A DNA stretch of 25,977 nt, taken from the NCBI GenBank assembly GCA_003644265.1, contig QNBX01000051.1, positions 1 to 25,977 on the forward strand. The letters are read 5' to 3'. The notes below the pieces were generated by a model, which made no database searches, was not told where the DNA came from, and saw only the letters and a list, made by a program, of their open reading frames with translations. Source of the DNA: Planctomycetota bacterium. Lineage in GTDB: Bacteria; Planctomycetota; B15-G4. A program made the position numbers and the translations under genes. Shown here piece after piece: positions 3,440 through 21,935 of this stretch. The first letter of the stretch is position 1; each line of letters begins with the position of its first letter.

Positions 3440-3640
3440 GGGGAATGCGCAAGACAGTTCGTCGACCAGGGTCTTCTGGCTCACGGAGGATGACCTCGGG
3501 ACGCGCCTTCCCGCCTGATGCTGCAGGCAGTGACCGGGACCTCGCTCGTGTGAGCGGCTCCCCAGCGTCCGTCGCCTCCGTTCACAGCGGCGGGACCGCG
3601 ACGGAATTACACCGTCTTCCCCGGGGGCCGAGAACAACAG
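3440..3640 (-). ncRNA. Cobalamin (B12) riboswitch aptamer
   Basis: Read on the minus strand, the 5' part contains the conserved GGGGAAGACGGTGTAA block at about 3622-3607. It is followed by ATTCC, then GCGGTCCCGCCGCTGTGA, the hallmark of cobalamin riboswitches. Further on come GGTCACTG and GGGAAGG, and finally the B12 box GAGCCAGAAGACC at 3482-3470 (consensus GCCAGGAGACC, one base different). Order and spacing fit the adenosylcobalamin-type aptamer. The outer ends (P1) are approximate. It lies upstream of a terminator and of the two secreted-protein genes on the same strand. Confidence 0.92.
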
Positions 3641-3845: not shown

Positions 3846-5540
3846 ATGAGCGCTTCCGTCGTGAAGGACCTTTTCCTGGGCGAGCTGTCCGCCGCCGCCG
3901 TGCTGCCGTTCCCGTTCCTCGATCCCGAGCGGGCTGAGCTGCTGGCCATGGTGCGCGAGACTCTCGACCGCTTTGCCGCCGACAAGATCGATCCGGACGC
4001 CATCGACCAGGCCCACGCCATCCCCCAGGAGGTGCTGGACGGCCTGGCCGAGGTGGGCCTGTTTGGCCTGCGCATCAGCGAGGACTACGGCGGCCTCGAC
4101 CTGAACACCAGCCAGTACGTGCGCGTGGGCGTCGACCTGGCGCGCTACGACGGCGCCACCGCCATCCTCTCGGGCGGCCACAGCACCATCGGCATCAAGG
4201 CCCTGCTGCTGCGCGGCAGCGACGAGCAGAAGCAGCGCTACCTGCCGCGCCTGGCCACCGGCGAGCTCAAGGCGGCCTTCGCCCTGAGCGAACCCGACGC
4301 GGGCAGCGACGCCCAGGCCCTGCGCTGCACGGCCACGCGGCGCGACGACGGCAGCTACGTGCTCAACGGCGAGAAGCTGTGGATCACCAACGGCGGCCTG
4401 GCCGATCTGATCACCGTCTTCGTGCGCACGCCCGACCATCCGCGCGACGACGGGCGACCCTCCATCAGCTGCTTCCTGGTGGAGCGCAGCATGGGCTACG
4501 TGCCGGGGGCCGAGGAGGACAAGCTCGGCATCTGCGGCAGCTCCACCGTGCCGCTGCTGTTCGAGGACGTGGTGGTGCCCGCCGAGAACATGCTGGGGCC
4601 GCCCGGCGACGGCTTCCGCTTGGCGCTGGAGGTGCTCAACTCGGGCCGCACGGGGCTGGCGGGCAACTGCCTCGGCGCCGGCCGGTTCATCCTGAAAGAG
4701 GCCGCGCGCTACGCGGCCGAGCGCGAGCAGTTTGGCCAGCCCATCGCGCGCTTCGAGCTGATCCAGGAGAAGCTGGCGCGCATGGCGCAGGACCTGCACG
4801 CCCTCGAGTGCATGCTGTTCCTCACCACCGGGCTGATGGACCGCGAGGGCAGCGACGCCGCCGCCGAGTTCGCGCTGGAGTCGGCGCTGTGCAAGATCTT
4901 TGGCACCGAGACGCTCTGGTCGGTGGTCAACGACGCGGTGCAGATCGCGGGGGGCAACGGTTTCACCAGCGACTACCCCTTCGGACGCATGCTGCGCGAC
5001 GCGCGCGTCAACATGATCTTCGAAGGCACCAATGAGATCCTGCGCATCATGGTGGCGACCACGGGGGCGGCCGAGGCCGGCCGGCGCGCGGGGGGCGCTG
5101 GGGTCGAGCCCATGAGCCCCTATGGCCGACGCATCAGCGGCAGCGAGGGGCCCGACCCGCTGCCCGTACCCGCGGCGCTGCAGGCCGAGGCCCTGGCGCT
5201 GGCCATGGGCGGCTCCGAACTGGCGGTCTCCACGGCGCGCGCGGTTCAGCAGCACGGCAAGGGGCTGCGCGCGCGGCAGCTCGTGTGCGCGGCGCTCTCC
5301 GATCAGGCCATGGCGATCTACGCCCAGGCCGCCGTGCTGTCCCGCGCCAGCGCGGTGTTCGAATCGCTGGGCGAGGAGGCCGCCGCGGATGAGCTGCTGT
5401 TGGCCCAGGGCGCCTGCCGACGCCAGTCCCGGGCAGCCCGCGCCGCCAGTGACCGCCTGCGCGACAACGACGACGAGCTGTTGGTGACCACGGCCGAACT
5501 GGTCAGTCGCCTGGGCGGTCCCTTGGGAGAACGCATGTGA
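3846..5540 (+). CDS. Acyl-CoA dehydrogenase, long VLCAD/ACAD9-like form
   Basis: FAD-dependent alpha,beta-dehydrogenation of an acyl-CoA, passing electrons to ETF; 564 residues. The N-terminal helical domain, the beta domain (AFALSEPDAGSDAQALR and LNGEKLWITNGG, the FAD/substrate signatures) and the C-terminal helical domain (REQFGQPIARFELIQ) are complete. The catalytic base Glu is in MIFEGTNEILR near residue 400, and QIAGGNGFTSDYP precedes it. About 140 extra C-terminal residues match the membrane-associated extension of VLCAD/ACAD9 rather than the ~380-residue short-chain enzymes. I chose the ATG at 3846 because the family usually begins just before the KDLFLGEL-like segment. An in-frame ATG at 3768 with AAGGA nine bases upstream would add 26 unconserved residues and is a real alternative. 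The stop overlaps the next gene's GTG by four bases. Exact chain-length preference is unknown. Confidence 0.93.
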   Translation: MSASVVKDLFLGELSAAAVLPFPFLDPERAELLAMVRETLDRFAADKIDPDAIDQAHAIPQEVLDGLAEVGLFGLRISEDYGGLDLNTSQYVRVGVDLARYDGATAILSGGHSTIGIKALLLRGSDEQKQRYLPRLATGELKAAFALSEPDAGSDAQALRCTATRRDDGSYVLNGEKLWITNGGLADLITVFVRTPDHPRDDGRPSISCFLVERSMGYVPGAEEDKLGICGSSTVPLLFEDVVVPAENMLGPPGDGFRLALEVLNSGRTGLAGNCLGAGRFILKEAARYAAEREQFGQPIARFELIQEKLARMAQDLHALECMLFLTTGLMDREGSDAAAEFALESALCKIFGTETLWSVVNDAVQIAGGNGFTSDYPFGRMLRDARVNMIFEGTNEILRIMVATTGAAEAGRRAGGAGVEPMSPYGRRISGSEGPDPLPVPAALQAEALALAMGGSELAVSTARAVQQHGKGLRARQLVCAALSDQAMAIYAQAAVLSRASAVFESLGEEAAADELLLAQGACRRQSRAARAASDRLRDNDDELLVTTAELVSRLGGPLGERM

Positions 5541-6910
5541 TCGACGAGCAGCCGGACAGCAGCGAAGGCATGAGCTCTGGCGCCGACGCGCGCCGACCCG
5601 ACGACGAACGAGCGATACCACGCGAGCCGTTGGAGCCTGCGACTGACGCGGGGCCGGGCCAGGCGGCTTCGGCCGACGCGGCAGCGAGCGACGAAACCGT
5701 GGGCGACGAAACACCTGCCGACGCGGGCACTGACGCGGGCACCGACGCGGATGCCGACGGGGGCGCCGACGATCAAGCCCCGGTCGAGCCTCTCCGCAGC
5801 ACGGCGGCCGATGACGACGCACGGCTGGAGGACGGGACGCCGCTCACGCCGCGTCGCAGCGCGCCTGACGGCGTGCCCTCGGCGTACGTCGAGGGAGCGT
5901 CGGGGGGCCCCGATCGCGCCGGCGAACGGCGCGGCGCCGAGGACCCCGCCGGCCCGCTCGAGCTCAGCTCGGCGGGCGCGACCAGCAAGCTCCGCCCCGG
6001 CGGCCGCCGGCGCGGCGACCCCGCGGCCCCCGATGCCGAGCCCGAGCTTGAGTCGGAGTCGTTCGAGCGCCCGGGCGGCCTGCTCAGCCGCATCGATGGC
6101 CACGTCATCATCTACCACCAACCGCACAGCCTGCAGGCCGAGCAGTACCGCGCCTTCCGCGCCACGCTCTCGGCCATGAACCCCGGCGGCGCGCCCTGGG
6201 CCATCGTGGTCACCAGCGCGCGCAAGGGCGAGGGCAAGTCCACCACCGCCACCAACCTGGCCGCCTGCCTGGCCGAACTGCCCGGGCAGCGCGTGTGCAT
6301 CGTCGATGCCGACAGCCGCTCGCCTAGCCAGGCCCAACTGCTGGGGTGCACCCCGCGCGTCGGGCTGACCGAGGTGCTGGAGGGCAAGGCCGCGCTCAAC
6401 GAAGCCACCATGGTGACGCTGTTGCCCGGGCTTGACTGCGTTCACTCCGGGCGCGAGCCGGCCAACCCCGCCGAGGTGCTGGGCAGCGACGCCTTCGCCC
6501 ACCTGCTGGGCGAGCTGAAGCGGCGCTACTCGTGGATCGTGCTGGACTCCCCGCCGGTGAACCCCTTCACCGACCCCTGCGTGCTGGCCGCGCAGTGTGA
6601 CGGCGCCATCCTGGTGGTGCGCCTGCAGACCGCGCCGCGCGAGCTGGTGACCAGCTCCGTGGACGCCATCACCAACGCGGGCGGGCGCGTGCTGGGCACC
6701 TTCGTCACGGGCCTCACGCCCGACACGGACGACGACGCCGAGGTCTCGGGCTACGAGCGCATCTCCGACGAGGACCGGGCCCTGTTGCGCAAGGGCGGCA
6801 AGGACGAGCGCGAGCTGCGCAAGCAAGAGCGCGAGCGCTCCAAGCGCGAGAAGGCCGCCGTCAAGCAGCAGCGCAGGCAGGGCGGAGCCGACGAGGAGTT
6901 CCCGGTTTGA
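5537..6910 (+). CDS. BY-kinase/CpsD-like P-loop ATPase with acidic N-terminal region and no Tyr tail
   Basis: The first ~180 residues are low-complexity, rich in Asp, Ala, Gly and Glu, and probably disordered. The second part is a MinD/ParA-type ATPase of the bacterial tyrosine kinase (CpsD/CapB/Wzc) branch. It has the QAEQYRAFRATL lead-in, a Walker A (ARKGEGKSTTATNLA, Lys about 234), a Walker A' VDADSRSP (about 256-263) and a Walker B-like LDSPP (about 336-340). The C-terminus is highly charged and basic (many Arg/Lys/Glu) with only one tyrosine after the domain, so the tyrosine cluster that BY-kinases autophosphorylate is missing. No membrane segment or Wzz adaptor is seen here. The GTG start overlaps the acyl-CoA dehydrogenase stop (GTGA), implying coupling; an ATG at 5570 is an alternative. 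Known relatives control polysaccharide export; whether this one phosphorylates protein is doubtful. Confidence 0.83.
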   Translation: MIDEQPDSSEGMSSGADARRPDDERAIPREPLEPATDAGPGQAASADAAASDETVGDETPADAGTDAGTDADADGGADDQAPVEPLRSTAADDDARLEDGTPLTPRRSAPDGVPSAYVEGASGGPDRAGERRGAEDPAGPLELSSAGATSKLRPGGRRRGDPAAPDAEPELESESFERPGGLLSRIDGHVIIYHQPHSLQAEQYRAFRATLSAMNPGGAPWAIVVTSARKGEGKSTTATNLAACLAELPGQRVCIVDADSRSPSQAQLLGCTPRVGLTEVLEGKAALNEATMVTLLPGLDCVHSGREPANPAEVLGSDAFAHLLGELKRRYSWIVLDSPPVNPFTDPCVLAAQCDGAILVVRLQTAPRELVTSSVDAITNAGGRVLGTFVTGLTPDTDDDAEVSGYERISDEDRALLRKGGKDERELRKQERERSKREKAAVKQQRRQGGADEEFPV

Positions 6911-7037: not shown

Positions 7038-8300
7038 GTGCTGACGCCGCGGCCGCTGCGGGGCGAGGCGCGTGTGCCCGGCGACAAGTCGGTCACGCAC
7101 CGCGCGCTGCTGCTGGGGGCGGTGGCCTCGGGCGAGACGCTCGTTCGCGGCGCGTTGGACGCGCTCGACACCCGCTCCAGCGCGCGCTGCGTGCGGGCCC
7201 TGGGTGCGCGGGTGCGCTGGCAGCGGGGCGGCGAGCTGGCCGTGCTGGGTACGGACGAGCTGCTCAGCCCGAGCGCGCCGCTCGACTGCGGCAACGCCGG
7301 CACCGCCGCGCGTCTGCTGCTGGGCCTGCTGGCCGGACGCAGCGGGCGCTGGGCGCTGACCGGGGACGAGTCCCTGCGCGCTCGCCCCATGGGGCGCGTG
7401 TGTGCGCCGCTGGCGAACCTGGGCGCGCGCATCGACGGCGAGCGCCTGCCGCTGGCCGTGCAGGGCGCGCCGCTGTCCGGCGGCGAGCTGCGCGTGGAGG
7501 TGCCCTCGGCCCAGGTCAAGTCGGCGCTGCTGCTGGCAGGGCTGGTGTGCGACGGCCCGCTGACCGTCGAGCAGCCCGTGCCCACCCGCGATCACACCGA
7601 GCGCATGCTGCCCGCGTTTGGCGTGCGCTGCCAGGTGGACGGCGCGCGCATCACGCTGCACCCCGGCCGTCCGGCCGCCGCGCAGATCGACGTGCCCGCT
7701 GACCCCAGCGCCGCGGCCTTCCTGGTGCTGGCGGCGCTGCTCACCCCGGGTAGCGAGCTGGCCTTACCGGGTGTCGGTCTGTGGCCGCGCCGCACGGGCT
7801 GGCTCGACGTGCTGATCCGCGCCGGCGCACCGATCACGGTGCAAGCGCTGCGCGAGGACGGCGTCGATCCCGTCGGCACGCTGCACATCCGCGCCGCCGA
7901 CGAAGGCCAGCTCGGCGCGCTGAGCGTCTCGCCGCACGAGGTGCCCGACCTGGTGGACGAGCTGCCCATGCTGGCCCTGGCCGCCGCCCGCGCCCAGGGC
8001 ACCAGTCGCTTCGAGGGCCTGGCCGAGCTGCGCGTCAAGGAGACCGATCGCGTGGCCAGCATCGCGCGCCTGCTGGGCAGCCTGGGCGTGCCGGTCGTGG
8101 TGGACGGCGACAGCCTCTCCATCACCGGCGTGCGCGCCTTCTCGGCGCCGCCGCTGCGCGACCCCGTCGATCACCGCCTGGCGCTGTGCGCCGACGTGGC
8201 TCGCCACGTCAGCGGTCTGTCGCCCGAGCCCGACGACGGCGCCGGCGCGGTGTCGTGGCCGGGCTTTGGCCAGGTGCTGGCGGGGCTGGGCGAGGGCTGA
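7038..8300 (+). CDS. aroA: 3-phosphoshikimate 1-carboxyvinyltransferase (EPSP synthase)
   Basis: Transfers the enolpyruvyl group of PEP to shikimate-3-phosphate, step six of the shikimate pathway. At 420 residues it is of normal length. Signatures are complete: the N-terminal PGDKSVTHRALLLG (shikimate-3-phosphate binding Lys/Ser/Arg), GNAGTAARLLLG (PEP site, about 85-96), VPADPSAAAFLVLAA, the catalytic-Asp block VPDLVDELPML, the LRVKETDR signature and the C-terminal DHRLAL plus WPGFGQVL. The glycine of GNAGT, where glyphosate-tolerant class II enzymes such as CP4 have alanine, is kept. GTG at 7038 has GGAGGG seven bases upstream. The 127-base gap to the preceding gene contains a small hairpin, so it may have its own control. 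No other aromatic-pathway gene is in the window. Confidence 0.96.
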   Translation: MLTPRPLRGEARVPGDKSVTHRALLLGAVASGETLVRGALDALDTRSSARCVRALGARVRWQRGGELAVLGTDELLSPSAPLDCGNAGTAARLLLGLLAGRSGRWALTGDESLRARPMGRVCAPLANLGARIDGERLPLAVQGAPLSGGELRVEVPSAQVKSALLLAGLVCDGPLTVEQPVPTRDHTERMLPAFGVRCQVDGARITLHPGRPAAAQIDVPADPSAAAFLVLAALLTPGSELALPGVGLWPRRTGWLDVLIRAGAPITVQALREDGVDPVGTLHIRAADEGQLGALSVSPHEVPDLVDELPMLALAAARAQGTSRFEGLAELRVKETDRVASIARLLGSLGVPVVVDGDSLSITGVRAFSAPPLRDPVDHRLALCADVARHVSGLSPEPDDGAGAVSWPGFGQVLAGLGEG

Positions 8301-8310
8301 GAGCTCGCCC
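8288..8310 (+). terminator. Probable terminator of aroA
   Basis: GGGCGAG (8288-8294) pairs with CTCGCCC (8304-8310), with a nine-base loop that contains the aroA stop codon. It is followed by TCTTGCGTTG, a weak T-rich stretch. The stem is perfect but the tail is poor. Confidence 0.5.
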
Positions 8311-8399
8311 TCTTGCGTTGATTGAGTTCATGGTCCAGCCAGGTCAGCTCGCCACGTTGCCCTCCCCGGCCGCGTCTGCCTGGGCGACTGCTGAGGGCC

Positions 8400-8408
8400 T
8401 GCTACCAT
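8400..8408 (+). promoter_or_regulatory. Candidate extended -10 promoter of the ferritin-like/carbamoyltransferase pair
   Basis: TGCTACCAT contains an extended -10 (TG, one base, TACCAT) about 60 bases ahead of the start at 8470. No convincing -35 box is visible. The same TGCTAC..T core occurs ahead of the SGNH genes at 12667, which supports a shared promoter type. Confidence 0.4.
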
Positions 8409-8469
8409 TCGCTCCCGCTCGGCGATGTCAGCGAGCTGAACGAACCGCTGTTCCTGTGTGGGAGGCCTC

Positions 8470-9243
8470 ATGTCCGTGCTTGTGTCTCTGTTGCCCTCCC
8501 GCTCGCGCGCGGCTTGGCGCGACCCGGTGCGGCGGTATCGCACCCTGCTGGCCTTCTCGGCCACCGAGGCTGACGGTGGCAAGAACCTGTTGGCCTGCGC
8601 CGCCCAGGTCGAGGACGATGGACTCAGGGAGCACTTGCTCAAACACGCCGATGACGAGGTCAGGCACGCGCGTTTGTTCAGGGACCGTGCCGCGCAGGTG
8701 CGCGCGGAGGTCGCCGATGCAGGCGCTGCGGACGGCTCCCAGGTCGAACGGCTCTGGGACGTGTCTACGGGCCGTGAGTCGGACGGCCAGGATGCCCACG
8801 GATTCCTCAGCGACGAGTTGCTCGACACGCGCGGCGTGGTGGCCTACGTCGCCATGCTGCATGTGGCCGAGTTGAAGGCCGAGGAGCTGTTCGCCCGATT
8901 CTCGAAAGAGACCGCCCACGACCCGGGGACCCAGGCCGTGTTCGACGAGATCCTCAAGGACGAGCGCTACCACGTGGCGTACACGCGTCGATTCCTCGAC
9001 GAATGGCGGCAGCAGGGCTTCGCCCAGGAAGTGGAGCGTGAGCTCAGAGCCGCCAGGAGTTCGCGCTTCGTGGGCGCTTGGCGACGGCTGGGCCTGCGCT
9101 CGGCCTCAGGTTTCAGCTGCCTGCTGCTGCAGGTCCTCTACCTCACGCTGCTCATGCCCTTCGGCCTGCTCGCCCGCCGCAACCGCCCGCCCCGCGGCTG
9201 GCAGCAGCCCGCGCCAGTGACGGGATTGCAGGACCAGGCCTGA
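8470..9243 (+). CDS. Ferritin-like di-iron protein with C-terminal membrane segment
   Basis: 257 residues. The four-helix-bundle iron ligands of the ferritin/rubrerythrin-like superfamily are visible in order: Glu33 (SATEADGG), the pair Glu63-x-x-His66 (DEVRHARLF), a third-helix Glu at 134 or 138 (HVAELKAEELF) and Glu165-x-x-His168 (KDERYHVAYT). That is a full set for a di-iron oxidase or oxygenase rather than a storage ferritin. A hydrophobic helix (about 213-235) near the C-terminus, followed by an Arg-rich tail, would anchor it to the inner membrane with the bundle probably in the cytoplasm. The ATG at 8470 has GGAGG four bases upstream; a GTG at 8458 is in frame but overlaps that site. 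The stop overlaps the next ATG as TGATG, so it is tightly coupled to the carbamoyltransferase homologue. Substrate unknown. Confidence 0.85.
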   Translation: MSVLVSLLPSRSRAAWRDPVRRYRTLLAFSATEADGGKNLLACAAQVEDDGLREHLLKHADDEVRHARLFRDRAAQVRAEVADAGAADGSQVERLWDVSTGRESDGQDAHGFLSDELLDTRGVVAYVAMLHVAELKAEELFARFSKETAHDPGTQAVFDEILKDERYHVAYTRRFLDEWRQQGFAQEVERELRAARSSRFVGAWRRLGLRSASGFSCLLLQVLYLTLLMPFGLLARRNRPPRGWQQPAPVTGLQDQA

Positions 9244-10940
9244 TGGCGCTGCTCGCTGTCTCGGCATATCACCGCGACGCCTCGGCGGTGTTGCTGGTCG
9301 ACGGCGTGCCTGTGGCTGCCGCACGCGAAGAGTCATTCAGCGGCGAGCCCCACGACGCGGCCCTCCCCCTGAGGGCCGTTCGCCACTGCCTGAGTGCCGC
9401 TGGGCTCGTACCCACCGACCTGGAACACGTCGTGTTCCAAGGCAAGCCTCTGCGCGCCTTCGAGCGCGTCCTCGTCAGTCATCTGCGCGCCTTCCCCCGT
9501 TCGGGGCGGGCCTTTTCCAAGGATCTCTTCCGGTGGCTCGGAGATCGGCTCTGGGTGCGAGATCGCCTGGCCGGTGAGCTGGGGCTCGACCCCACCCGGG
9601 TCCTGTTCATCGACCGGGCACGTTGCCACGCCGCCACGGCGTTTTTGACCTCGCCCTTCGAGCAGGCCGCCGTGCTCGTGCTCAACGACGTGGGCGACTG
9701 GGCCACCACGCTCATGGCCCAGGGCGAAGGTCAGCAACTCACGGCCCTGTCCGAGCTGCCGTTCCCCCACTCGTTGGGGCTGGTGGCTTCTGCGTTGACG
9801 CAGTTCCTGGGCTTCGAGCCTGGCTCGGACGAGGCCCTTGTGGAAGACCTGTCGGCCTGGGGCAGTCCCGATCAGGCAGAGGCCCTGGGAGCGCTGCTTC
9901 CCGCCGCGGAAGACGGCAGCTTCGAAGTGGACAGCGAGGCGTTTCACTTCGCCTTCGATGGGGATCAACTGGCCGGCCCGGGGCTGGCGCGCGCGCTGGG
10001 CCAGCGTCGCGGCAGCCAGAGCCCCTTGCTCGTGGACGGGGAGGACCGGCGCCATGCGGTGCTGGCCGCCAGCCTGCAGGCCGTGCTCGAGCAGCGAGCT
10101 CTGGCCCTGGCCAGCGAACTCTATCGCCGAGCGCCGGGTGAGGCGCTCTGCGTGGGAGGGGTGCTGGCAAGCAACGCCCGCCTGCTGGCTCGACTTTCGG
10201 TCGACGGGCCCTTCGCCCGGGTCTTTGCCCCAGCGGCGCCCGGCGACGACGGGGCAGCCCTGGGTGCGGCCCTGCTGGCCCACAGCCTGCTCTCCAAGGA
10301 GGGTGATTCAAACCGCCTGCGACGAGCGACCCGCCAGCTGCCCCCGGGCCCCGGCCTGGGGGGCTTGCCGACCCACGACGAGACGGGCTCGCCCAGGGGC
10401 ACTCCGCGCTCGCAAGACGAGTTGCGCGACGAGTTGGTGACTCAGCTCAGCGATGGTGCCAGCGTGGCGTTCGTCCAGGGGCCCTTGCCGTTGGGGCCTG
10501 ATCCCGGGGGGGCACGCGTGCTGTTGGCTCACCCGAGTCATGGGCAGGATCCGCTGGCAGCTCTGCGTGGGGAGTTTGCCTGGCGGCTGCCGCGCTACGC
10601 CGTGCCTGCCGAGCAGGCAGCGAGCCTGTTTGACTTGCCGGGCCAAGCCGAACTGTTCCCGAATGCCACGGTTCCACTGGCTCGGGTGCGATCCGACAGC
10701 AAGTTGCGGGCCGCGCCCGACGGGACTGTGCGCCTGTTGCTGGTCCAGCGCGAGGCCCAACCTGAGTTGCACGCCTTGTTGATGTCACTCGACGCCGCTG
10801 GCCAGGGCCCTCTGCTGCGCGCCGAGACCTTCCGGACCCAGGGCGCAGCCGCCGTGCGCAGCGAGCGAGAGGCCCTTGACGCCTTCGAGCGCAGCACGCT
10901 CCAAGTCCTGGTCGCGGGCAACCGGATCTACACGCGCTGA
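9243..10940 (+). CDS. NodU/CmcH-family carbamoyltransferase homologue with degraded active sites (likely pseudoenzyme)
   Basis: 565 residues, normal length for the family, with both the Kae1-like N-terminal domain and the YrdC-like C-terminal domain. Fold blocks align well: the start AVSAYHRDASAVLLVDG (family: YYHDSAACLL), PHSLGLVASALTQFLGF, AASLQAVLEQ and PGDDGAALGAALLA. The catalytic signatures are changed. The HHLSHAAS metal site reads DRARCHAAT (first His of H-x3-H becomes Arg125, His129 kept). VDGVGEWAT reads LNDVGDWAT. GEYKVMGLAPYG reads DEALVEDLSAWG. The YrdC-side GPRALGNRSIL reads GPDPGGARVLL. NTSFN..GEPIV reads RAETF..QGAAAV. The frame is intact with normal codon use, so the protein is made but probably does not carbamoylate. 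A scaffold or sensor role is inferred. Coupled to the ferritin-like gene by TGATG. Comparisons are from memory of family motifs. Confidence 0.85.
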   Translation: MALLAVSAYHRDASAVLLVDGVPVAAAREESFSGEPHDAALPLRAVRHCLSAAGLVPTDLEHVVFQGKPLRAFERVLVSHLRAFPRSGRAFSKDLFRWLGDRLWVRDRLAGELGLDPTRVLFIDRARCHAATAFLTSPFEQAAVLVLNDVGDWATTLMAQGEGQQLTALSELPFPHSLGLVASALTQFLGFEPGSDEALVEDLSAWGSPDQAEALGALLPAAEDGSFEVDSEAFHFAFDGDQLAGPGLARALGQRRGSQSPLLVDGEDRRHAVLAASLQAVLEQRALALASELYRRAPGEALCVGGVLASNARLLARLSVDGPFARVFAPAAPGDDGAALGAALLAHSLLSKEGDSNRLRRATRQLPPGPGLGGLPTHDETGSPRGTPRSQDELRDELVTQLSDGASVAFVQGPLPLGPDPGGARVLLAHPSHGQDPLAALRGEFAWRLPRYAVPAEQAASLFDLPGQAELFPNATVPLARVRSDSKLRAAPDGTVRLLLVQREAQPELHALLMSLDAAGQGPLLRAETFRTQGAAAVRSEREALDAFERSTLQVLVAGNRIYTR

Positions 10941-10995
10941 CAGCCGCTCTTCCGCACTTCGACGGCGCCGCGTTGCCCACCAACGGGAGCAAGCC

Positions 10996-11028
10996 GTGCC
11001 GGCGGTCCGCCGCGAGCCCGCCGGGCAC
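10996..11028. terminator. Hairpin between convergent genes
   Basis: GTGCCGGCGG (10996-11005) pairs with CCGCCGGGCAC (11018-11028) with one bulged G, followed by TTTGCC. It lies in the 105-base gap where the carbamoyltransferase homologue and the methyltransferase gene converge. The short T run favours termination of the plus-strand transcript. Confidence 0.42.
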
Positions 11029-11045
11029 TTTGCCATGCTGTCCTG

Positions 11046-12032
11046 CTACGAACGCCGGGCCACCACGCAGACCAGTCCGGCGTCCGGGTCCACGGGGCCC
11101 GTAGCTAGCCAGCTCAGGCGAGCGGAACGTGCTGCGGATGAGCCGAGGGCTGCGCCGTCAGCGAGCATGCCCGCGTGGAGCACCGGCGGCACGCTGCGCA
11201 GGGTGTGCAGGCCATGCTGGGCCAGGATCTTCACGACGTGGGGCAGGGGCAGTGAGACTTCGGCCGGGTGCAGGTACTGGTCCTCGATCCAGATGCGTCG
11301 CTTCTCAGCGTCGAGCACGCCCCGCCGCAACAGCGGGTCCAGCAGCGCGAAGGGTCGCGCTCGGGAGCGCCCTGGCAAACGGGCCAACGCACGGCGCAGC
11401 CGATGGAATGCCCGAGCCCAGGTCTCGTAGAACCCGAGGACCAGGACGCCACCGGGTGCGACCAGGCCTGCCACCTCACCCATGGCCCGGTCGGGGTCAG
11501 GCGTGTGATGCACCACTCCGCGGCTGATGACCACGGGCCACTGCCCAGGCGCTAGCGGCAGCTCGAACAGGTCGCCGCGCACCAGGTGCAAGTTGCTCAC
11601 CCGGGCCCGATCACGAAACGCAGCGGCGTGCTCCAGCGACGAGCGGCAGCCATCCACGCCGAGCACTCGACGGCGGGGTGCCGAGAGGGCCAGGAACGCA
11701 GCGAGCTGAGCCGTGCCGCAGCCGATATCGAGCACCTGGGCGTCGGTGGGCAGGTCGGCGTCCAGCGCGCGCAGAAACGGGCTGGCCCGTCCGCGCCCCA
11801 GGATCGTGCGCTCGTCGTCCCCCGCGGCGTACCCAGGGAAGGGGCTCTTGGCGTAGAAGGCCTCTACTTCGGAAGCGACGGATTCGCGCTGGGCCCCGCC
11901 GATGACATCGAGTACGCCTGCACGCCAGCTGAACGTCAGGGCACACCCGGGGCAGATCCCATCCGTCGGGCTGGGCAAGTGCATGCCGCAACGGGGGCAG
12001 GCGAGCGCCTCACAGCTCAGGGCCGATTCCAA
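11046..12032 (-). CDS. Zinc-ribbon SAM-dependent methyltransferase
   Basis: 328 residues. An N-terminal zinc ribbon (Cys12-x2-Cys15 and Cys27-x2-Cys30) resembles the Trm112-like domain fused to many type 11 methyltransferases. The class I Rossmann core follows, with motif I VLDIGCGTAQ (about 100-109), an acidic LGVDGCRSS end of strand 2, and GVVHHTPDPD near 173 as the post-motif signature of Methyltransf_11/25. The C-terminal ~110 residues (basic, WIEDQYLHP) are probably the substrate region. The reading frame is closed by a TAG twelve bases before the TTG at 12032, so TTG is the only start that keeps the zinc ribbon. It has no Shine-Dalgarno and may be leaderless (see promoter). It converges on the carbamoyltransferase homologue and diverges from the DUF5989 gene. 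Substrate unknown; small metabolite or glycan precursor is likelier than nucleic acid. Confidence 0.85.
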   Translation of the reverse strand: MESALSCEALACPRCGMHLPSPTDGICPGCALTFSWRAGVLDVIGGAQRESVASEVEAFYAKSPFPGYAAGDDERTILGRGRASPFLRALDADLPTDAQVLDIGCGTAQLAAFLALSAPRRRVLGVDGCRSSLEHAAAFRDRARVSNLHLVRGDLFELPLAPGQWPVVISRGVVHHTPDPDRAMGEVAGLVAPGGVLVLGFYETWARAFHRLRRALARLPGRSRARPFALLDPLLRRGVLDAEKRRIWIEDQYLHPAEVSLPLPHVVKILAQHGLHTLRSVPPVLHAGMLADGAALGSSAARSARLSWLATGPVDPDAGLVCVVARRS

Positions 12033-12038
12033 GAGACC

Positions 12039-12047
12039 ACGCTAGCA
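12039..12047 (-). promoter_or_regulatory. Extended -10 element abutting the methyltransferase start
   Basis: On the minus strand TGCTAGCGT (12047-12039) has the TG-n-TANNNT form of an extended -10 box. Only six bases separate it from the TTG start codon, so transcription would begin at or next to the codon. No -35 box is visible. Confidence 0.35.
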
Positions 12048-12113
12048 TTTCACCGGGGCCGGCCGATGATGTCCCTTCGCGCATGCTGGCCCGTGGGCAA
12101 AGGACGCATCAGA

Positions 12114-12296
12114 ATGACATGGATCAACGCATTACGGGGCGGAGCCGCCACGGTAGCCGAGCTGCTGAGTGCCCTGTGGAACGGTCCGTACTGGTGGCTG
12201 GTTCCCGTGGTGTTGATCCTGCTGCCGACCGCCGTGGTCTGCGTGCTGCTCCAAGCCGCGCCCCTGGTGGCGCCCTTCGTCTACTCGGTGTTTTAG
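12114..12296 (+). CDS. DUF5989-type small membrane protein (SxtK-like), 60 aa
   Basis: A 60-residue protein with an amphipathic N-terminal helix (WINALRGGAATVAELLSALW), a short NGPYWWLVPV turn, one long transmembrane helix (about 27-46) and the terminal APFVYSVF. The order 'helix, W-W-L-x-P, TM, APFxYxxF' is how I remember DUF5989. That family of about 50-60 residues is found next to O-carbamoyltransferases, as SxtK next to SxtI in saxitoxin clusters. Start ATG has AAAGGA nine bases upstream. It is transcribed away from the zinc-ribbon methyltransferase and followed by 450 bases without a clear gene. The function of the family is unknown; a membrane adaptor for the carbamoyltransferase or SGNH partner is a guess. 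It is easily missed by gene callers because of its size. Confidence 0.83.
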   Translation: MTWINALRGGAATVAELLSALWNGPYWWLVPVVLILLPTAVVCVLLQAAPLVAPFVYSVF

Positions 12297-12488
12297 CCTC
12301 CCGTGCTTGCTGTCCGCGGTCGCTGGACGACGGATGGGGGAAGTCGACGCGGCTGCATCCGGTGCACCCGCGGCTCTGACGCTGAGCCTGTTGGGAATCA
12401 GTGCCCATGCAGAAGGCGAGCGGCCCTCGCTTGCACCGGGCCAGTCCGCGCACGGCAGGCGTGACAGCTCGCTCGGTGAGTTGACTGA

Positions 12489-12662
12489 GTGAAGGCGGAA
12501 CAGCCATGCACGCTGGCGTTGTCTGCGATCCAGCTGCTGCGTCACGAGTTGCCGGTCCGCCGGGAGGCCGGCGGGGTGCTGCTCACGCTCCGAAATCGAT
12601 CCGGCGGGTTCGGGGCCATCGGGAAGCCCCTCGCGTCCCCCAGAGTCGATCGGGCGACCTAA
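12489..12662 (+). CDS. Doubtful small ORF, 57 aa
   Basis: A GTG-initiated frame ends at TAA 12660-12662. Its third codon positions are mostly G or C and its composition is protein-like (LALSAIQLLRHELPVRREAG, then GGVLLTLRNRSGG). A TGA immediately precedes the GTG. The ribosome site is weak (GGTGAG about eight bases upstream). No motif or family is recognised. It could be a chance frame or a remnant. Confidence 0.22.
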   Translation: MKAEQPCTLALSAIQLLRHELPVRREAGGVLLTLRNRSGGFGAIGKPLASPRVDRAT

Positions 12663-12666
12663 TGAG

Positions 12667-12675
12667 TGCTACAGT
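12667..12675 (+). promoter_or_regulatory. Candidate extended -10 promoter of the SGNH operon
   Basis: TGCTACAGT has TG-n-TACAGT form and lies about 78 bases before the preferred SGNH start at 12753. It shares the sequence TGCTAC..T plus a CGC..CCG downstream flank with the element at 8400. No -35 box is visible. Confidence 0.42.
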
Positions 12676-12752
12676 CGCCCGTATCGCCCTGGGAATCGGC
12701 CCTCGATGTATCTCCACATGCCACAGTTGCGCCCTTGTTGAGGTCTCGCGGC

Positions 12753-14012
12753 ATGCGGCCAGCAGAACGAGGCCACGCATCGCGCCCACCCTCCGGCCGA
12801 CCCCGCTCGATGTCCAAGCCGCCTTCTCGCCGCGGTCGCTGGATCGTGCTGGCGCTCGCGCCGCTGCTCGGGCTGGCGCTGCTTGAGGGGCTGTTGCACA
12901 CGTCCCTGGCTCAGGAGCGCCTCTACAACCTGCTCTACATGCCGGGGGAAGACACCAAGTTCGGTGATTGCTCCAGCCTGCCGGGTCTCTTGAAGGCCGG
13001 CCGCTACGGCTATGGCCCTTTTGAGGCCTGCGGCGACTTTGTGCTCAACTCCAAGGCACTGCGGACTCCGGAATACGCCACGCACAAGGCGGCAGGAACG
13101 CAGCGCGTGGTCCTCCTCGGCGACTCCAGCAGCTTCCGCTCCGGGGGCATCCCGCACGAGTTGCTGTGGCACACGCGCATGTTGGCCTCCCTGAGCGCCC
13201 GTGGCGTGGACAACCTGGAGCTGATCAACCTGGCCGTTCCCGCCATCGGCCCCCACTTCGAGTGGCGCATGTGGGAGCTTGAGGGCTCGCGCCTCTCGCC
13301 CGACCTGGTAATCCTGGCTGTCTCAGTGAGCAACGACTTGGTTGAAGTGCAGGCTGGACTCTCGGCTCGCAGCGGGCTGGACAGGCTCGCCCAACTGTTC
13401 CTCAGCGTGCGCCTGATGCGCAACTACGGCATCCTGCGCGAGTTGCGCCAAGAAGGCCGCCCAGGTGCGGTAGCCCAAGTGCAACCCGTGGCTCATGAGG
13501 CCCAGGCGGGCGGCACGGTCATCGCTGACTACCGGTCAAGGTACGACCGGTCGCGGCCGGCATTCACGCAAGAGCACCACGATCGGATCGTCTACAGGCG
13601 AATGGCCGTCTGTGATCTGGACCTCACCGGGCTGTTTGAGTCGGCGGTCTCACGCATGTACGACGTTCTGGCCCGGTTGCGGCACAGCACGTCTGCCGTG
13701 GGTGCCAAACTTGCGATCCTGTTGGTTCCGGCGGAGTACCAGATCGACGAGTCCCTCTTGCGTCGCGTCGCACAGGCCCGGGGACGGCAGCTTGAGGAGT
13801 TCGACACGAAGCGCCCCCAGCGCGCCTTGATCAAGGCCTGCAAGCGACTCCACATTCCTGTGCTCGACGCGTTTGACGTGGTGAATGAGGCCGGCAAGCG
13901 CGCGCCCATGTTTCGGCCGCGGGAGACGCACGTGAACGATCTGGGCCACGCCCTGATGGCCGAGCAGTTCAGCACTTTTCTGCTCGCTCGGGGCTTGGTG
14001 GGGGCGCCCTGA
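12753..14012 (+). CDS. Membrane-anchored SGNH/GDSL-hydrolase-like protein with degraded active-site blocks
   Basis: 419 residues. A basic N-terminus and a hydrophobic helix (about 30-49) suggest a type II anchor with the domain in the periplasm. The SGNH fold is shown by block I LLGDSSSF (Ser125 as nucleophile) and block III VSVSND (191-195, family GxND with Gly replaced by Ser). The C-terminal RETHVNDLGHALMA holds the block V His393, but the position of the catalytic Asp in D-x-x-H is Arg390. The catalytic triad is therefore incomplete unless the neighbouring Glu391 stands in. Known relatives are esterases or O-acyltransferases acting on exported glycans. The ATG at 12753 has GAGG nine bases upstream; the ATG at 12810, just before the anchor, is an alternative, and the frame is open from 12666. 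It precedes a second SGNH gene by 64 bases, so the two are probably co-transcribed. Confidence 0.82.
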   Translation: MRPAERGHASRPPSGRPRSMSKPPSRRGRWIVLALAPLLGLALLEGLLHTSLAQERLYNLLYMPGEDTKFGDCSSLPGLLKAGRYGYGPFEACGDFVLNSKALRTPEYATHKAAGTQRVVLLGDSSSFRSGGIPHELLWHTRMLASLSARGVDNLELINLAVPAIGPHFEWRMWELEGSRLSPDLVILAVSVSNDLVEVQAGLSARSGLDRLAQLFLSVRLMRNYGILRELRQEGRPGAVAQVQPVAHEAQAGGTVIADYRSRYDRSRPAFTQEHHDRIVYRRMAVCDLDLTGLFESAVSRMYDVLARLRHSTSAVGAKLAILLVPAEYQIDESLLRRVAQARGRQLEEFDTKRPQRALIKACKRLHIPVLDAFDVVNEAGKRAPMFRPRETHVNDLGHALMAEQFSTFLLARGLVGAP

Positions 14013-14076: not shown

Positions 14077-15648
14077 ATGGGCCAGTCGCCTGAAGCAGGC
14101 GCGCCGCACGCCGCCCCGCGGCCGCTGCTCCGTACCTGTGCCTTTGCCCTGGCGCCCTTGATTGCCCTGCTGCTGAGCCTGGAAGCCGCGCTCTCATTGC
14201 TGGGGCTGGGCGCCGAACGTGGGCAGCCTCTCTCCGCAGGATTCGATCCGCATGCGCAGTACCTGGTGCCGGTCGACGGGAGCCCAGGTGCTTGGCGCAC
14301 GCAGTTCCGAGGCATCGAGAACACTCACAAGGAACTGCAGATCCCCCCAAGGGACGGGCGCCTGCGCCTGCTGCTGTTCGGCGGCTCAAACACGCAGGGC
14401 TTCCCGGAGGAGCTGATGCAGCGGGCGCTGAATGAGGCCGCGCCAGATCCAGGCTACGAGGTGATCAATCTCGGGCGTCCTGGCTACGGCAGCGAGCGCG
14501 TGCTGATCCTGTTCGAGCAGGCGCTCGCTCTCGAGCCGGACGTGGTCGTGATCTACTCGGGGCACAATGAGTTCGTGGAGTCCGGCTTCGCCTTGGAGCT
14601 GGCAGATAGAGGCGCCACCGCCCAACTGCTGCGTGCCCTCGACCGATTGCAGCAGGTGCGCATCGTCAACCTGGCAGTGACGGCTTTCCGCCCGGCAGGT
14701 GTTCCCCTGGCGCCCCCGCGCCCAGAAGCGCGGCGCAGCCCTGGCGCGCGCTTCAATCAACTCACATTCGTGCAGACCCAGGTCTTCTACGAGGCGTACG
14801 CGGAGAACCTGGCCCACATGTGTGAACTCGCTGAGGCTGCGGGGGTACGCATCGTGCTGAGCACGGTCATCGGCAACATGCTCTTTCGGCCCAGAGACTG
14901 CGGCCTTCCGCTTGAGATGAGCGGCGAGATGCAGGCCGACTTCGAGCAGCGCCTCGAATGGGCCCAGCAGCTCATCCCCTCGCGCTTTGTGGAGGCCTTC
15001 TCGCCCAGCGTGCCTCCGCGATGGTACGCCTGGCGAGACACAGGTCGGGACAGGCCAGCGGCGCCCGACGACGCGGTCGGCGCCCAGAGCTATCGCGCGC
15101 CGCGCCTGCGCCCGTTGTCAGGGCCACTCGCCCTGGCACCCGCAGGCATCGTCAAGCGCATTCCCATCGTGGAGGGTGCACACTGGACCGATCCTGCCGG
15201 TTGGGAGCCGTCGCTGCGGCCCGTGATCGACGCAGTCGCCGCCCTGCACGAGCGAGAGCTTACGCCGCAGGAGGCCCTGGCGACGCAGCGCGCCGCAGCT
15301 CTCTTCGAGCAACTGCTGATCGATTGCGACAACCACCCCGTGGCCACCTTCAACTTGGCCTTGTGCACCTACCTGCTGGGACATAACGATGAGGGCGCTA
15401 CCCAGCTCCTGATCGACGCCGCATGCTTCGATCGGACCCCGCGGCGCGGGAATCAGACGTCCAACGACATCGTGCGCGAACTGGCCGCCCGCTACGACCT
15501 GACCCTGCTCGATGCCGAAGCGCTCTACCGTGCGCGCTGCCCCGACGGGATCATCGGCTGGGAAGTCATGCTGGATGTGTGCCACATCCACCCCGGTGCG
15601 CGGGTGGCCCTCATGCACGACATCGCCCGTGCGGTACTCACACCATGA
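14077..15648 (+). CDS. Membrane-anchored SGNH hydrolase with TPR-like C-terminal part
   Basis: 523 residues. After a short basic leader, a transmembrane helix spans about 22-44. The SGNH blocks are canonical: block I FGGSNTQGF with Ser104, block II GRPGYGSE (about 133-140), block III SGHNEFVE with Asn164, and block V LDVCHIHP with Asp500 and His503. A helical, TPR-like stretch (about 405-480, including TFNLALCTYLLGHNDEGATQ) is inserted before block V, a pattern I know from planctomycete SGNH proteins. The protein should be a periplasmic esterase or acyltransferase; its substrate is probably a glycan or lipid-linked sugar. ATG at 14077 has only a weak ribosome site. Its stop overlaps the start of the 46-residue DUF5989-like gene (ATGA), showing that the two are made together. 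Compared with the preceding SGNH protein this one looks catalytically competent. Confidence 0.88.
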   Translation: MGQSPEAGAPHAAPRPLLRTCAFALAPLIALLLSLEAALSLLGLGAERGQPLSAGFDPHAQYLVPVDGSPGAWRTQFRGIENTHKELQIPPRDGRLRLLLFGGSNTQGFPEELMQRALNEAAPDPGYEVINLGRPGYGSERVLILFEQALALEPDVVVIYSGHNEFVESGFALELADRGATAQLLRALDRLQQVRIVNLAVTAFRPAGVPLAPPRPEARRSPGARFNQLTFVQTQVFYEAYAENLAHMCELAEAAGVRIVLSTVIGNMLFRPRDCGLPLEMSGEMQADFEQRLEWAQQLIPSRFVEAFSPSVPPRWYAWRDTGRDRPAAPDDAVGAQSYRAPRLRPLSGPLALAPAGIVKRIPIVEGAHWTDPAGWEPSLRPVIDAVAALHERELTPQEALATQRAAALFEQLLIDCDNHPVATFNLALCTYLLGHNDEGATQLLIDAACFDRTPRRGNQTSNDIVRELAARYDLTLLDAEALYRARCPDGIIGWEVMLDVCHIHPGARVALMHDIARAVLTP

Positions 15649-16977: not shown

Positions 16978-17156
16978 GATTGGTGTTCCTCGATGTCACG
17001 GGCCAGGCGCCGACGCGCGGCAGCGCGCGTGAGCAGAAAGGCCAGCAGATGAAAGGGGGTGCTGAGCAGGTCGAGCGCCAGGCGTAGCAGCAGACCGGCC
17101 TGCTCCAGGCGTCCGCCGGGAGGGGCGGGCTCGGGTGTGGTTGGCGTTGTGTTCAC
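16974..17156 (-). CDS. 60-aa hydrophobic microprotein, middle gene of a three-gene operon
   Basis: A GTG at 17156 lies inside the stop of the SUMF1-like gene (GTGA) and the frame ends at a TGA (16976-16974) that overlaps the ATG of the next gene (ATGA). The 60 residues comprise a Thr/Pro-rich start, a long amphipathic to hydrophobic segment (about 21-44, GLLLRLALDLLSTPFHLLAF) and an Arg-rich end (AAARRRLARDIEEHQS). This suits a monotopic or single-span membrane protein with its basic end in the cytoplasm. The double coupling to its neighbours is the strongest evidence that it is real. A longer frame reads through from 17525, but that part only shadows the SUMF1-like gene. No family recognised. 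Confidence 0.72.
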   Translation of the reverse strand: MNTTPTTPEPAPPGGRLEQAGLLLRLALDLLSTPFHLLAFLLTRAAARRRLARDIEEHQS

Positions 17157-18511
17157 AGGTCCTGTGCGCAGCGGAAGCCGATCGGGCGGTCGAAGCCCGG
17201 GTGGGCGAAGGTGGCCCGCCCGGGCGCGATCCAGCGGTGGCGCGTGGTGAGCTTGTCGCGCGAGCTGCGCCAGCTGCCGCCGCGGATGATCAGGTTGACG
17301 GGTCCGTCGGGCAGGCTGCTCACGTCGCGGCCCTCCTCCAGCGTGGCGGTCCACTCCCACACATTGCCGGCCATGTCGAAGCAGCCCGCGGCGGAGCGCG
17401 CGCCGGGGAAGCTCTCCACCGGGAGCGGGCCCGGGTTGGCGCTGGCGCCGTTGCACAGCCCTACGGCGAACTCGTCGCCCCAGGGCCAGGCGCGCCCGTC
17501 GGGTCCGGCTGCAGCGGCCTCCCACTCGTCCTCGCTGGGCAGGCGCTTGCCGAGCCAGCGGGCGTAGGCGGCGGCCTGCTCCCAGCTCACGAACTCCACC
17601 GGGTGGCGGCCCCGCTCGGGCTCGTCGTTGCGGACGCTGCCGACGCTGTTCAAGCTCCAGCCTCGGGGCAGCAGGGCGCGCCGCGCCGCCAAGGGTTGGG
17701 CCTCGATGAAGGTCTGGTACTCGCGCCGCGTGACCTCGCGCCGGTCGAGGGCGAAGGGCTGCAGCTGCAGCTTGCGCCCGGGGCGCTTGAAGCCGCTGTT
17801 GGGGCCCAGTTCGTATGGGCCGCCGGGCACGATCACCATGCCGGCGGGGGCGCGCTCACCGCGTGGGCCGTAGCGCTCGGGGAAGCGCGCCCGGTCGAGG
17901 GCCAGGCCGGCTTGCTCGTACTCGGCCTGGGCCGCCGTCAGGACGCGCGACTCGGGCAGGTCTGCGTGGAAGCTGCGGTTCCAGAACTCGTACCAGTTCT
18001 CGCCGGGCTCGAAGAGCGCCTCGATCAGGCGCAGCAGCGCGGTGGCGTCCACGTCCTCCAGGTTGGAACGGCCGGCCAGGCCGTCGGCCACGCGCCGCGA
18101 GATCCAGGCTGCCAGGCGCGGGTCCAGCGAGGACGCCTCGGACACCGGCAGCTCCCAGGCCTCGCGTACGATGCGCGCGCGCGTGCCGCGGCTGGGGCGG
18201 CGGCCCTCGGCGGCGGCGGCGGCGATGCGCGCCTGGGCCGTGGGCAGCAGGTCGAGCATGGCCAGCATCAGCTCGTTCTTCACCGAGGTGGCGCGGTCGC
18301 CCACGGTCAGCGCCTGGTAGTCGTCCTTGAGCGCATCCACCAGCAGCTGCAGGGCGTCCTGGGCGGCGGCGAGCTGATCGCGGGCCGCGCCCAAGCGCTC
18401 CGACGCGTCGGAGAGTGCCTGCTGGGCCCGCGGCCCTGCGGCGCTCTGCGGAGCCACCGGCAAGGTCATCAGGCTGAGAAGGGCTGCGCTGAGCAGCAGC
18501 AGAGACGGCAT
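17153..18511 (-). CDS. Secreted SUMF1/FGE-fold protein without catalytic cysteines
   Basis: 452 residues from the ATG at 18511, with a signal peptide (PSLLLLSAALLSLMTL, cut near residue 22). Residues ~25-220 are helical and Ala/Leu/Arg-rich, of unknown fold. From about residue 225 comes a full formylglycine-generating-enzyme-type domain: MVIVPGGPYELG, FALDRREVTRREYQTF, PVEFVSWEQAAAYARWLGKRLPSEDEWE, MAGNVWEWT, IIRGGSWRSS and the ending IGFRCAQ. True FGEs have two cysteines just after the GGS motif; here the segment reads GGSWRSSRDKLTT without cysteine, so it is not a sulfatase activator. FGE-fold domains without cysteines often serve as ligand-binding or structural modules. The in-frame TTG at 18577 would overlap recG's start region; ATG 18511 leaves 39 bases between divergent genes. 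First gene of a coupled three-gene operon. Confidence 0.88.
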   Translation of the reverse strand: MPSLLLLSAALLSLMTLPVAPQSAAGPRAQQALSDASERLGAARDQLAAAQDALQLLVDALKDDYQALTVGDRATSVKNELMLAMLDLLPTAQARIAAAAAEGRRPSRGTRARIVREAWELPVSEASSLDPRLAAWISRRVADGLAGRSNLEDVDATALLRLIEALFEPGENWYEFWNRSFHADLPESRVLTAAQAEYEQAGLALDRARFPERYGPRGERAPAGMVIVPGGPYELGPNSGFKRPGRKLQLQPFALDRREVTRREYQTFIEAQPLAARRALLPRGWSLNSVGSVRNDEPERGRHPVEFVSWEQAAAYARWLGKRLPSEDEWEAAAAGPDGRAWPWGDEFAVGLCNGASANPGPLPVESFPGARSAAGCFDMAGNVWEWTATLEEGRDVSSLPDGPVNLIIRGGSWRSSRDKLTTRHRWIAPGRATFAHPGFDRPIGFRCAQDL

Positions 18512-18550
18512 GATCGAGGGTCCGAGTGCCCGAGGGATGGATGCCCCATT

Positions 18551-20723: not shown

Positions 20724-20922
20724 TCCCGATTCGACGGTGCCCGAGGGGTGCCTGGGACGTGGCGCCTTAGGCAACTCCCGAGCCTCTGGCTGTTGTTTGG
20801 CCGGCCTGGGGCCCCGTCGTCGCCATGACAGGACCTGAACAGCGCGGCCCGGGCCCAGGCCCAAGGCTGCGTCTGAGTGCAGCCCGAAGACACCCGCCCC
20901 AGATTCCCGAGGAGCCGTTGCC

Positions 20923-21912
20923 GTGACCGACATCCTGGAGCGCGGAGAGCGCATCAAGGAGGAGGCCGCCTTCCTGACCGACCTGATCGACGAGGTCGAG
21001 AAGGTCGTGGTGGGGCAGCGGCGCCTGGTGGAGCGGCTCATCATCGCCCTGCTGGCCGACGGCCACGTGCTGCTGGAGGGCGTGCCCGGCCTGGCCAAGA
21101 CCATGCTGGTGCGCACCCTGGCCCAGGCCCTCGACCTGAACTTCCATCGCATCCAGTTCACGCCGGACCTGCTGCCGTCGGACGTGACCGGCACCGAGAT
21201 CTACAACCCCGCCTCGGGCGAGTTCAGCGTGCGCCGCGGTCCGGTGTTCTCCAACATCCTGCTGGCGGACGAGATCAACCGCGCGCCGGCCAAGGTGCAG
21301 AGCGCCCTGCTGGAGGCCATGCAGGAGCACCAGGTGACCATCGGCGAGACCACCTTCGATCTGCCGTCGCCGTTCTTCGTGATGGCCACGCAGAACCCGC
21401 TGGAGCAGCAGGGCACCTACCCCCTGCCCGAGGCCCAGCTCGACCGCTTCCTGCTGAAGGTGCTGGTGGACTACCCCAGCAAGGAGGACGAGCAGCGCAT
21501 CGTGGAGGCCATGGCGCGACCCTCGCCGCGCACCGAGGTGCGCACGGTCACCAGCGCCGAGCAGCTCAAGCGCGCCATGGCGCTGCAGTCCGAGGTCTAC
21601 ATCGACGAGCTGGTGACGGCCTACATCGTCGACCTGGTGCGCGCCACGCGCGACCCGGCGTCCGTGGGGCTCGACGACCTGGCCCCGCTGATCGAGACCG
21701 GCGCCAGCCCGCGCGCGTCCATCTCGCTGGGCCTGGCGGGCCGCGCCCACGCCTTCCTGGACGGCCGCGCCTACGTGAAGGGGCACGACATCAAGTCGGT
21801 GGCCCACGACGTGCTGCGCCACCGCATCCTGCTCAGCTACGAGGCCGAGGCCCGCGAGATCCCGGTGGAGGAGGTCATCACCCGGGTGCTCGACCAGATC
21901 CACGTGCCCTGA
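20923..21912 (+). CDS. MoxR-family AAA+ ATPase
   Basis: 329 residues, the chaperone-like ATPase of MoxR/VWA systems. Walker A is GVPGLAKT (53-60), Walker B LLADEINRAPAKVQSALLEA (from 113), sensor 1 ATQNP (155-159), and QGTYPLPEAQLDRFLLK is the MoxR signature. The C-terminal lid (ASPRASISLGLAGRAHAFLDGR) is intact. GTG at 20923 has GAGGAG eight bases upstream. It heads an operon with DUF58, DUF4381 and two VWA membrane proteins. By family knowledge it probably matures or assembles its VWA partners using ATP. The substrate in Bat-type operons is not settled; roles in envelope stress and oxygen tolerance are reported for relatives. Confidence 0.95.
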   Translation: MTDILERGERIKEEAAFLTDLIDEVEKVVVGQRRLVERLIIALLADGHVLLEGVPGLAKTMLVRTLAQALDLNFHRIQFTPDLLPSDVTGTEIYNPASGEFSVRRGPVFSNILLADEINRAPAKVQSALLEAMQEHQVTIGETTFDLPSPFFVMATQNPLEQQGTYPLPEAQLDRFLLKVLVDYPSKEDEQRIVEAMARPSPRTEVRTVTSAEQLKRAMALQSEVYIDELVTAYIVDLVRATRDPASVGLDDLAPLIETGASPRASISLGLAGRAHAFLDGRAYVKGHDIKSVAHDVLRHRILLSYEAEAREIPVEEVITRVLDQIHVP

Positions 21913-21935
21913 GCCACGGGAGCGCCACCAGCACC

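Follow-up and report, generated by a model that had tools for sequence, protein, structure and literature searches.

A carbamoyltransferase homologue with altered catalytic sites, probably a non-catalytic partner of a ferritin-like protein, in a planctomycete

A stretch of 25,977 nucleotides (nt) from a Planctomycetota bacterium (B15-G4; assembly GCA_003644265.1, contig QNBX01000051.1), hereafter the window, was analysed around a gene pair encoding a ferritin-like protein and, directly downstream, a homologue of the class III O-carbamoyltransferases. Carbamoyltransferases (CTs) of this type decorate sugars and drugs. Judging from its residues, the homologue has very probably lost carbamoyl transfer, and on balance it probably survived as a non-catalytic partner of the upstream protein, a predicted diiron protein. 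Rows of the comparative datasets are labelled L (locus), P (protein homologue) and G (genome of a relative). The two genes, of which the ferritin-like stop codon and the CT-like start share one base (TGATG), are:

8470..9243, plus strand: ferritin-like protein, 257 amino acids (aa), predicted diiron ligands E33, E63, H66, E134, E165 and H168, C-terminal tail -DQA
9243..10940, plus strand: CT-like pseudoenzyme, 565 aa and stop, with Kae1-like (about 1-350) and YrdC-like (about 390-565) domains

Catalytic residues of the CT-like protein

The CT-like protein matched PF02543 over residues 4-344 (E 3.8e-46) and PF16861 over residues 401-564 (E 1.5e-10); both matches pass the curated cut-offs. Both domains and the Kae1-like/YrdC-like fold place it by homology in the class III O-carbamoyltransferase family, in agreement with an earlier sequence-only reading of this DNA, which had proposed the fold of a NodU/CmcH-type CT in one open frame. 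An absent or frameshifted end was rejected, as the frame was open to its stop with both domains present.

Catalytic positions were compared with those of GdmN, for which the structure paper (PMC9633730) gives H133, H137, D156 and D333 as iron ligands and H27 as general base, and describes the variants H27N and Y82F as inactive. The following positions were read in the window (all plus strand):

9273..9275: Arg11, opposite the general base (GdmN His27) in the alignment
9615..9629: R125-x3-H129, aligned with the Fe ligands GdmN His133/His137, first ligand lost
9684..9689: N148-D149 (VDG block reads L-N148-D149); both residues differ from their aligned GdmN counterparts, the Fe ligand Asp156 and the oxyanion-hole Gly157
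9837..9839: Leu199, replacing the lysine of EYKVMG (block reads EALVEDLS)
10245..10247: Asp335, aligned with the Fe ligand GdmN Asp333; present in the window and in 23/55 degenerate rows
10500..10517: altered GPRALGxRS block (GPDPGGARV), with Asp420 for the first Arg; the second Arg, R425, is retained, as in 55/55 degenerate rows
10566..10568: Arg442, replacing the YrdC-domain lysine ahead of RE-FRPFAP
10821..10835: AETFR in place of NTSFN, residues 527-531

In addition, Gln66 aligned with GdmN Tyr82, and His10 was found one position ahead of the lost base. Two of the four Fe-ligand positions (R125, H129, N148, D335) were retained, Arg occupied the position of the general base, and only R425 and R448 were left of the nine residues scored in the donor-site motifs (GPRALGxRS, KxRE-FRPFAP, HVDG and NTSFN). 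The changes named by the sequence-only reading (H-x3-H to R-x3-H, the VDG aspartate to Asn, and altered EYKVMGLA, GPRALGNRS and NTSFN blocks) were all recovered in the alignments.

A 17-site score was composed of seven positions from the GdmN structure paper and ten further motif positions of our choice. The window scored 4, the 79 canonical relatives 16-17 and the 15 canonical planctomycete copies 17. Chance loss in one sequence was rejected on the comparison of the window with the canonical relatives. Judging from the motifs, TobZ K443 and S530 presumably correspond to window R442 and T529.

The degenerate clade and constraint on its members

Searching with the window CT-like protein returned 219 homologues at E up to 1e-5, of which 120 were listed. 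Fifty-five degenerate rows (40 proteins and 15 locus rows) were compared. Left out of this set were L003 (motif string as in P0015, the homologue of Engelhardtia mirabilis, a cultivable planctomycete), L004 and L009 (complete, with Arg at the base), L018 (partial), the later found P0264, P0275, L114 and L124, and L006 and L012, excluded as intact. None of the 55 rows carried all 17 sites (range 3-13), His stood at the base position in two, and the lost motifs varied between rows. A plasmid search gave 151 records, all below 60% identity, and the five shown were annotated as carbamoyltransferase.

All 55 rows formed one group in a 79-row tree (support 100/99), adjoined by the intact gammaproteobacterial L006 and L012 (union 100/99). 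In trees with more intact rows the degenerate side was supported at 100/98 (29 rows), 100/99 (22 rows) and 100/99 (15 rows), and the intact rows around it formed a grade or were weakly grouped (89/57 in the tree with 29 degenerate rows, unresolved in that with 22, next fork 91/84 in that with 15). The place inside the clade was unsure for the long rows L016, P0075 and L015 (tree with 29 degenerate rows) and L100 (79-row tree).

P0275 branched first, with the remainder supported at 85/73, 93/91 and 91/72 (trees with 29, 22 and 15 degenerate rows); its base position is occupied by Arg, G157 is replaced by Ser and D333 by Glu, yet 9/10 further sites are kept. P0264, also early-branching, has Gly at the base and retains the other six of the seven GdmN positions and 8/10 further sites. 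On average, 6.6/9 YrdC-like sites remained in the 14 basal rows versus 2.0/9 in the 41 crown rows; the lysine of this domain was present in 13/14 and 1/41, respectively. The base of the transfer centre thus appears to have been lost first, and the donor centre later. Two related proteins, P0036 and P0046, combine a degenerate Kae1-like half with a YrdC-like half that is mostly canonical in P0036 and entirely so in P0046, which might be an assembly chimera. His is also missing from the GdmN base position in some CTs that are intact in other respects (L043-L045 and, by motif string, L112, L115, L116 and L118-L120); in L043-L045 a His stands one position ahead of it.

Among columns invariant in canonical proteins, 53/107 (residues 1-350) and 9/50 (the rest) were kept at 90% in 33 degenerate proteins, and 25 other columns were newly conserved in the degenerate clade. 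No internal stops were found in the genome matches listed. Nonsynonymous divergence (dN) was below synonymous divergence (dS) in the ten closest locus pairs, as the purifying-selection check proposed with the sequence-only reading had looked for; the values are rough, with dS high or saturated (L001-L007: dN 0.30, dS 1.76; L008-L013: dN 0.36, dS 0.63, dS high). In 129 of the 153 pairwise comparisons between degenerate loci, the ferritin-like neighbour was better conserved than the CT-like protein; in the intact pair L006-L012 the CT was the more conserved (71% vs 61%). At the sequence level, the retained fold, the lost catalytic residues and the constraint are those expected of a pseudoenzyme, the dN/dS part being rough.

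Ferritin-like neighbour and wider locus

Linkage was assessed in 21 loci with both genes (18 from a genome contig scan, the window, L100 and L102), with neighbours counted by phmmer using the window's genes. The ferritin-like gene was directly upstream of the CT gene on the same strand in 21/21 loci; in L101, at the end of a contig, only the ferritin-like gene is present. Relatives of two downstream genes, a DUF5989 protein and a methyltransferase, were near the pair in 17/21 and 14/21 loci. L004, L009 and L018 stop at or just past the CT gene, and downstream-gene gaps there carry no meaning; L005, with 2.6 kb remaining, showed neither gene, and the methyltransferase was not seen near L006 and L012 (intact CTs) or L100. 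Protein distances of the CT correlated with those of the methyltransferase at r 0.83 (14 loci) and with those of the ferritin-like protein at r 0.55 (19 loci).

In 81 genomes of one family, where residue-by-residue reading included 20 weaker CT matches, 15 carried the clade's CT-like gene, and 14 of these 15 also carried the ferritin-like gene; in the fifteenth, G063, the contig ends 95 bases upstream. No ferritin-like gene was found in the other 66 family genomes. It was present in 9/392 sampled genomes of the phylum (six first-look candidates scored per genome) and in 2/19 of the family of G012.

The ferritin-like protein has the ligand set E, ExxH, E, ExxH in a helical bundle (all-helical predicted model), by which diiron binding is predicted. 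Among the 120 listed of 202 ferritin-like homologues, E33, E63, H66, E134, E165 and H168 were retained in 120/120, and a Gln by the C-terminus, after a variable linker, was 98% conserved, exactly second from the end in 107/120 (commonest ending SQY, 35). Because the Gln and stop codons differ among loci, the tail appears to be conserved as protein. A hydrophobic stretch was observed ahead of the C-terminal end in this family (window and P0121-P0240). The window protein did not reach the curated cut-offs for DUF455, Ferritin, Rubrerythrin and COQ7, and PF03232, PF02915, PF00210 and PF04305 matched 10, 10, 8 and 7 of 14 members (E up to 0.1). A fold search with its model gave 678 matches at E up to 10 and none at 0.001; the top rows included Dps-like, VlmB and aldehyde-deformylating oxygenase chains, and also unrelated F-BAR chains.

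Downstream of the pair, the window contains:

11046..12032, minus strand: class I methyltransferase with a Cys-rich N-terminus
12114..12296, plus strand: DUF5989 small protein (PF19451)
12666..14012, plus strand: SGNH-like protein, start uncertain, Pfam match under cut-off
14077..15648, plus strand: SGNH/GDSL hydrolase-like protein

No promoter or terminator sites were found in a scan of 8200-12700, and no RNA families in a scan of 8300-12700. A Cobalamin riboswitch (RF00174) was detected at 3469-3622 on the minus strand (64.6 bits, E 4.7e-14); the open reading frames (ORFs) tested beside it gave no Pfam matches at E up to 1e-4. The surroundings further include a polysaccharide-type tyrosine autokinase (5537-6910), an FGE-sulfatase domain protein (17153-18577, minus strand) and DUF58/VWA-domain proteins (20877-25772).

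L006 and L012 come from gammaproteobacterial metagenome-assembled genomes with a ferritin-like gene, an intact CT and DUF5989. In L012 a glycosyltransferase precedes these genes and a weak AlgX/SGNH-like match follows them; related ORFs occur in L006, a hint at cell-envelope carbohydrate chemistry.

Interpretation and relation to known carbamoyltransferases

The residue losses, the clade, the linkage and the conservation of ligands and tail are read directly from the alignments and loci. Inactivity is inferred from the residue losses, and recruitment by the diiron protein from the gene linkage; binding, substrate holding and oxidation are likewise inferred. In the favoured reading, an active CT gene would have become linked to the diiron gene, after which the transfer centre would have been hit first, with loss of the base His, and the YrdC-like centre that makes carbamoyl-adenylate would have decayed afterwards, the CT-like fold staying under selection throughout. 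The diiron protein would perform the remaining, presumably oxidative, chemistry, and the CT-like chain would hold or position the old acceptor substrate, or build a complex or scaffold. It may grip the near-terminal Gln conserved in the ferritin-like tail, which is a candidate contact. Rather unlikely, in our view, is the more specific model in which a transferase that tailored alcohols became the substrate-presenting subunit of a diiron oxidase. The dead CT would then retain its acceptor pocket, the tail Gln would dock in the emptied transfer or donor site, and the old acceptor would be oxidised instead of carbamoylated.

Several observations weigh against this partnership. All four Fe ligands are retained in 14/55 degenerate rows (7 basal, 7 crown), some of which may bind metal. 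Only 6/25 newly conserved columns fall in the 55 mapped GdmN acceptor-pocket positions (about 2.4 expected by chance), and in degenerate-intact pairs the CT was the less conserved protein in only 10/36. The ferritin-like model is middling, with a predicted local distance difference test score (pLDDT) of 77.6, and its fold matches, none better than E 0.03, are weak. The intact CTs L006 and L012 also directly follow a ferritin-like gene, so the diiron protein can do without a dead CT. Furthermore, L114 (G075) and L124 (G076, partial), which share 60% identity, make up a second lineage of degenerate CTs; they pair with 100/100 support, and their long branch lies outside the ferritin-type clade (22 rows, 100/100). 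G075 and G076 yielded no ferritin-like gene, so the diiron protein is not needed for such decay; the linkage inside the window's clade is left untouched by this lineage. Lastly, replacements recur in the degenerate rows (His10 in 38/55, Arg11 in 35/55, Asp149 in 41/55, Arg425 in 55/55) and could mean new chemistry.

Because of this recurrence, the main rival, possible though doubtful, is an enzyme whose old site was rebuilt for another reaction (FHRD for YHD, DD for DG) and which would be no strict pseudoenzyme. The invariant G306 and nearly invariant N311 (33 rows) agree with it. However, the replacements vary, unlike those of a new catalytic set, the window has Asn148 where 49/55 have Asp, and past residue 350 few canonical-invariant columns are kept (the 9/50 above). 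A CT that is still active with ligands from shifted residues is very unlikely. From the sequence, the base alone could conceivably have moved by one residue, as the early His is found in 38/55 rows, the window included, and is shared by the otherwise intact L043-L045, which keep 10/10 further sites; the other losses would remain unreplaced by such a shift. No substitute for R125, N148, Asp420, Arg442 or AETFR was seen in the motif alignments, where this possibility, raised by the sequence-only reading as a refutation, was looked for, and no degenerate row has all 17 sites.

A pseudogene decaying while still open was rejected as scarcely credible. The lost motifs do differ from row to row, and the degenerate CTs mostly evolve faster than the neighbouring gene, but full-length open frames occur even in relatives with as little as about 40% identity to the window, dN is below dS in the roughly estimated pairs given above, the start overlaps the ferritin-like stop in the window, and neither stops nor frameshifts were seen in the matches listed from close relatives. 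The earlier proposal of a recruited pseudoenzyme instead of random decay is thus supported by the clade, the lack of stops in those matches, dN below dS, the newly conserved columns and the ferritin linkage.

Pseudoenzymes often pair with active paralogues, and the CT-like protein could be a partner or regulator of a separate intact CT elsewhere in the genome instead of the diiron protein. The second intact CT that the sequence-only reading had suggested looking for was present in relatives: 15/18 genomes holding these loci have a separate CT with 17/17 sites, G009 has an incomplete one with all 15 readable sites kept, and G006 and G012 have the ferritin-linked intact CT only. We nevertheless consider this partnership highly improbable, as a CT match (E up to 1e-80) was found in 77/81 family genomes and the clade's gene in only 15, and the linkage is to the ferritin-like gene.

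How pseudoenzymes arise is mostly pieced together from endpoints. This operon type, by contrast, spans intact relatives, early rows lacking little beyond the base, basal rows with partial donor sites and a crown that has lost both centres, and with such intermediates the order of loss can be tested. The reading also makes a concrete prediction for an unassigned diiron family and for DUF5989, and 'carbamoyltransferase' labels on degenerate-clade proteins are probably wrong as to function. The second, separate degenerate lineage suggests that the CT fold was repurposed more than once. In a literature search with most subscription papers and separate bioRxiv outside its scope, no work joining carbamoyltransferase with ferritin-like and Planctomycet and no mention of DUF5989 were found; titles and abstract openings for carbamoyltransferase with pseudoenzyme or with diiron indicated unrelated work only.

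Compared with GdmN, NovN, VtdB and TobZ, the window protein has 2/4 Fe ligands and lacks the base, Tyr82, the EYKVMG lysine, the first GPRALG Arg, the YrdC lysine and NTSFN; at 565 aa it is also without the C-terminal dimerization domain of GdmN. The canonical planctomycete CTs L103-L107 share the homologous CT fold and an adjoining DUF5989-like match (weak in L106 and L107), but no ferritin-like match was found in these five loci and the catalytic sites are intact, as in all 15 canonical rows (17/17). L006, L012 and their relatives P0241-P0262 are the nearest intact rows to the degenerate clade, and L006 and L012 share with it the ferritin-like gene directly upstream; they differ from it in keeping their sites, 17/17 in L006 and L012 and 15-17 in P0241-P0262.
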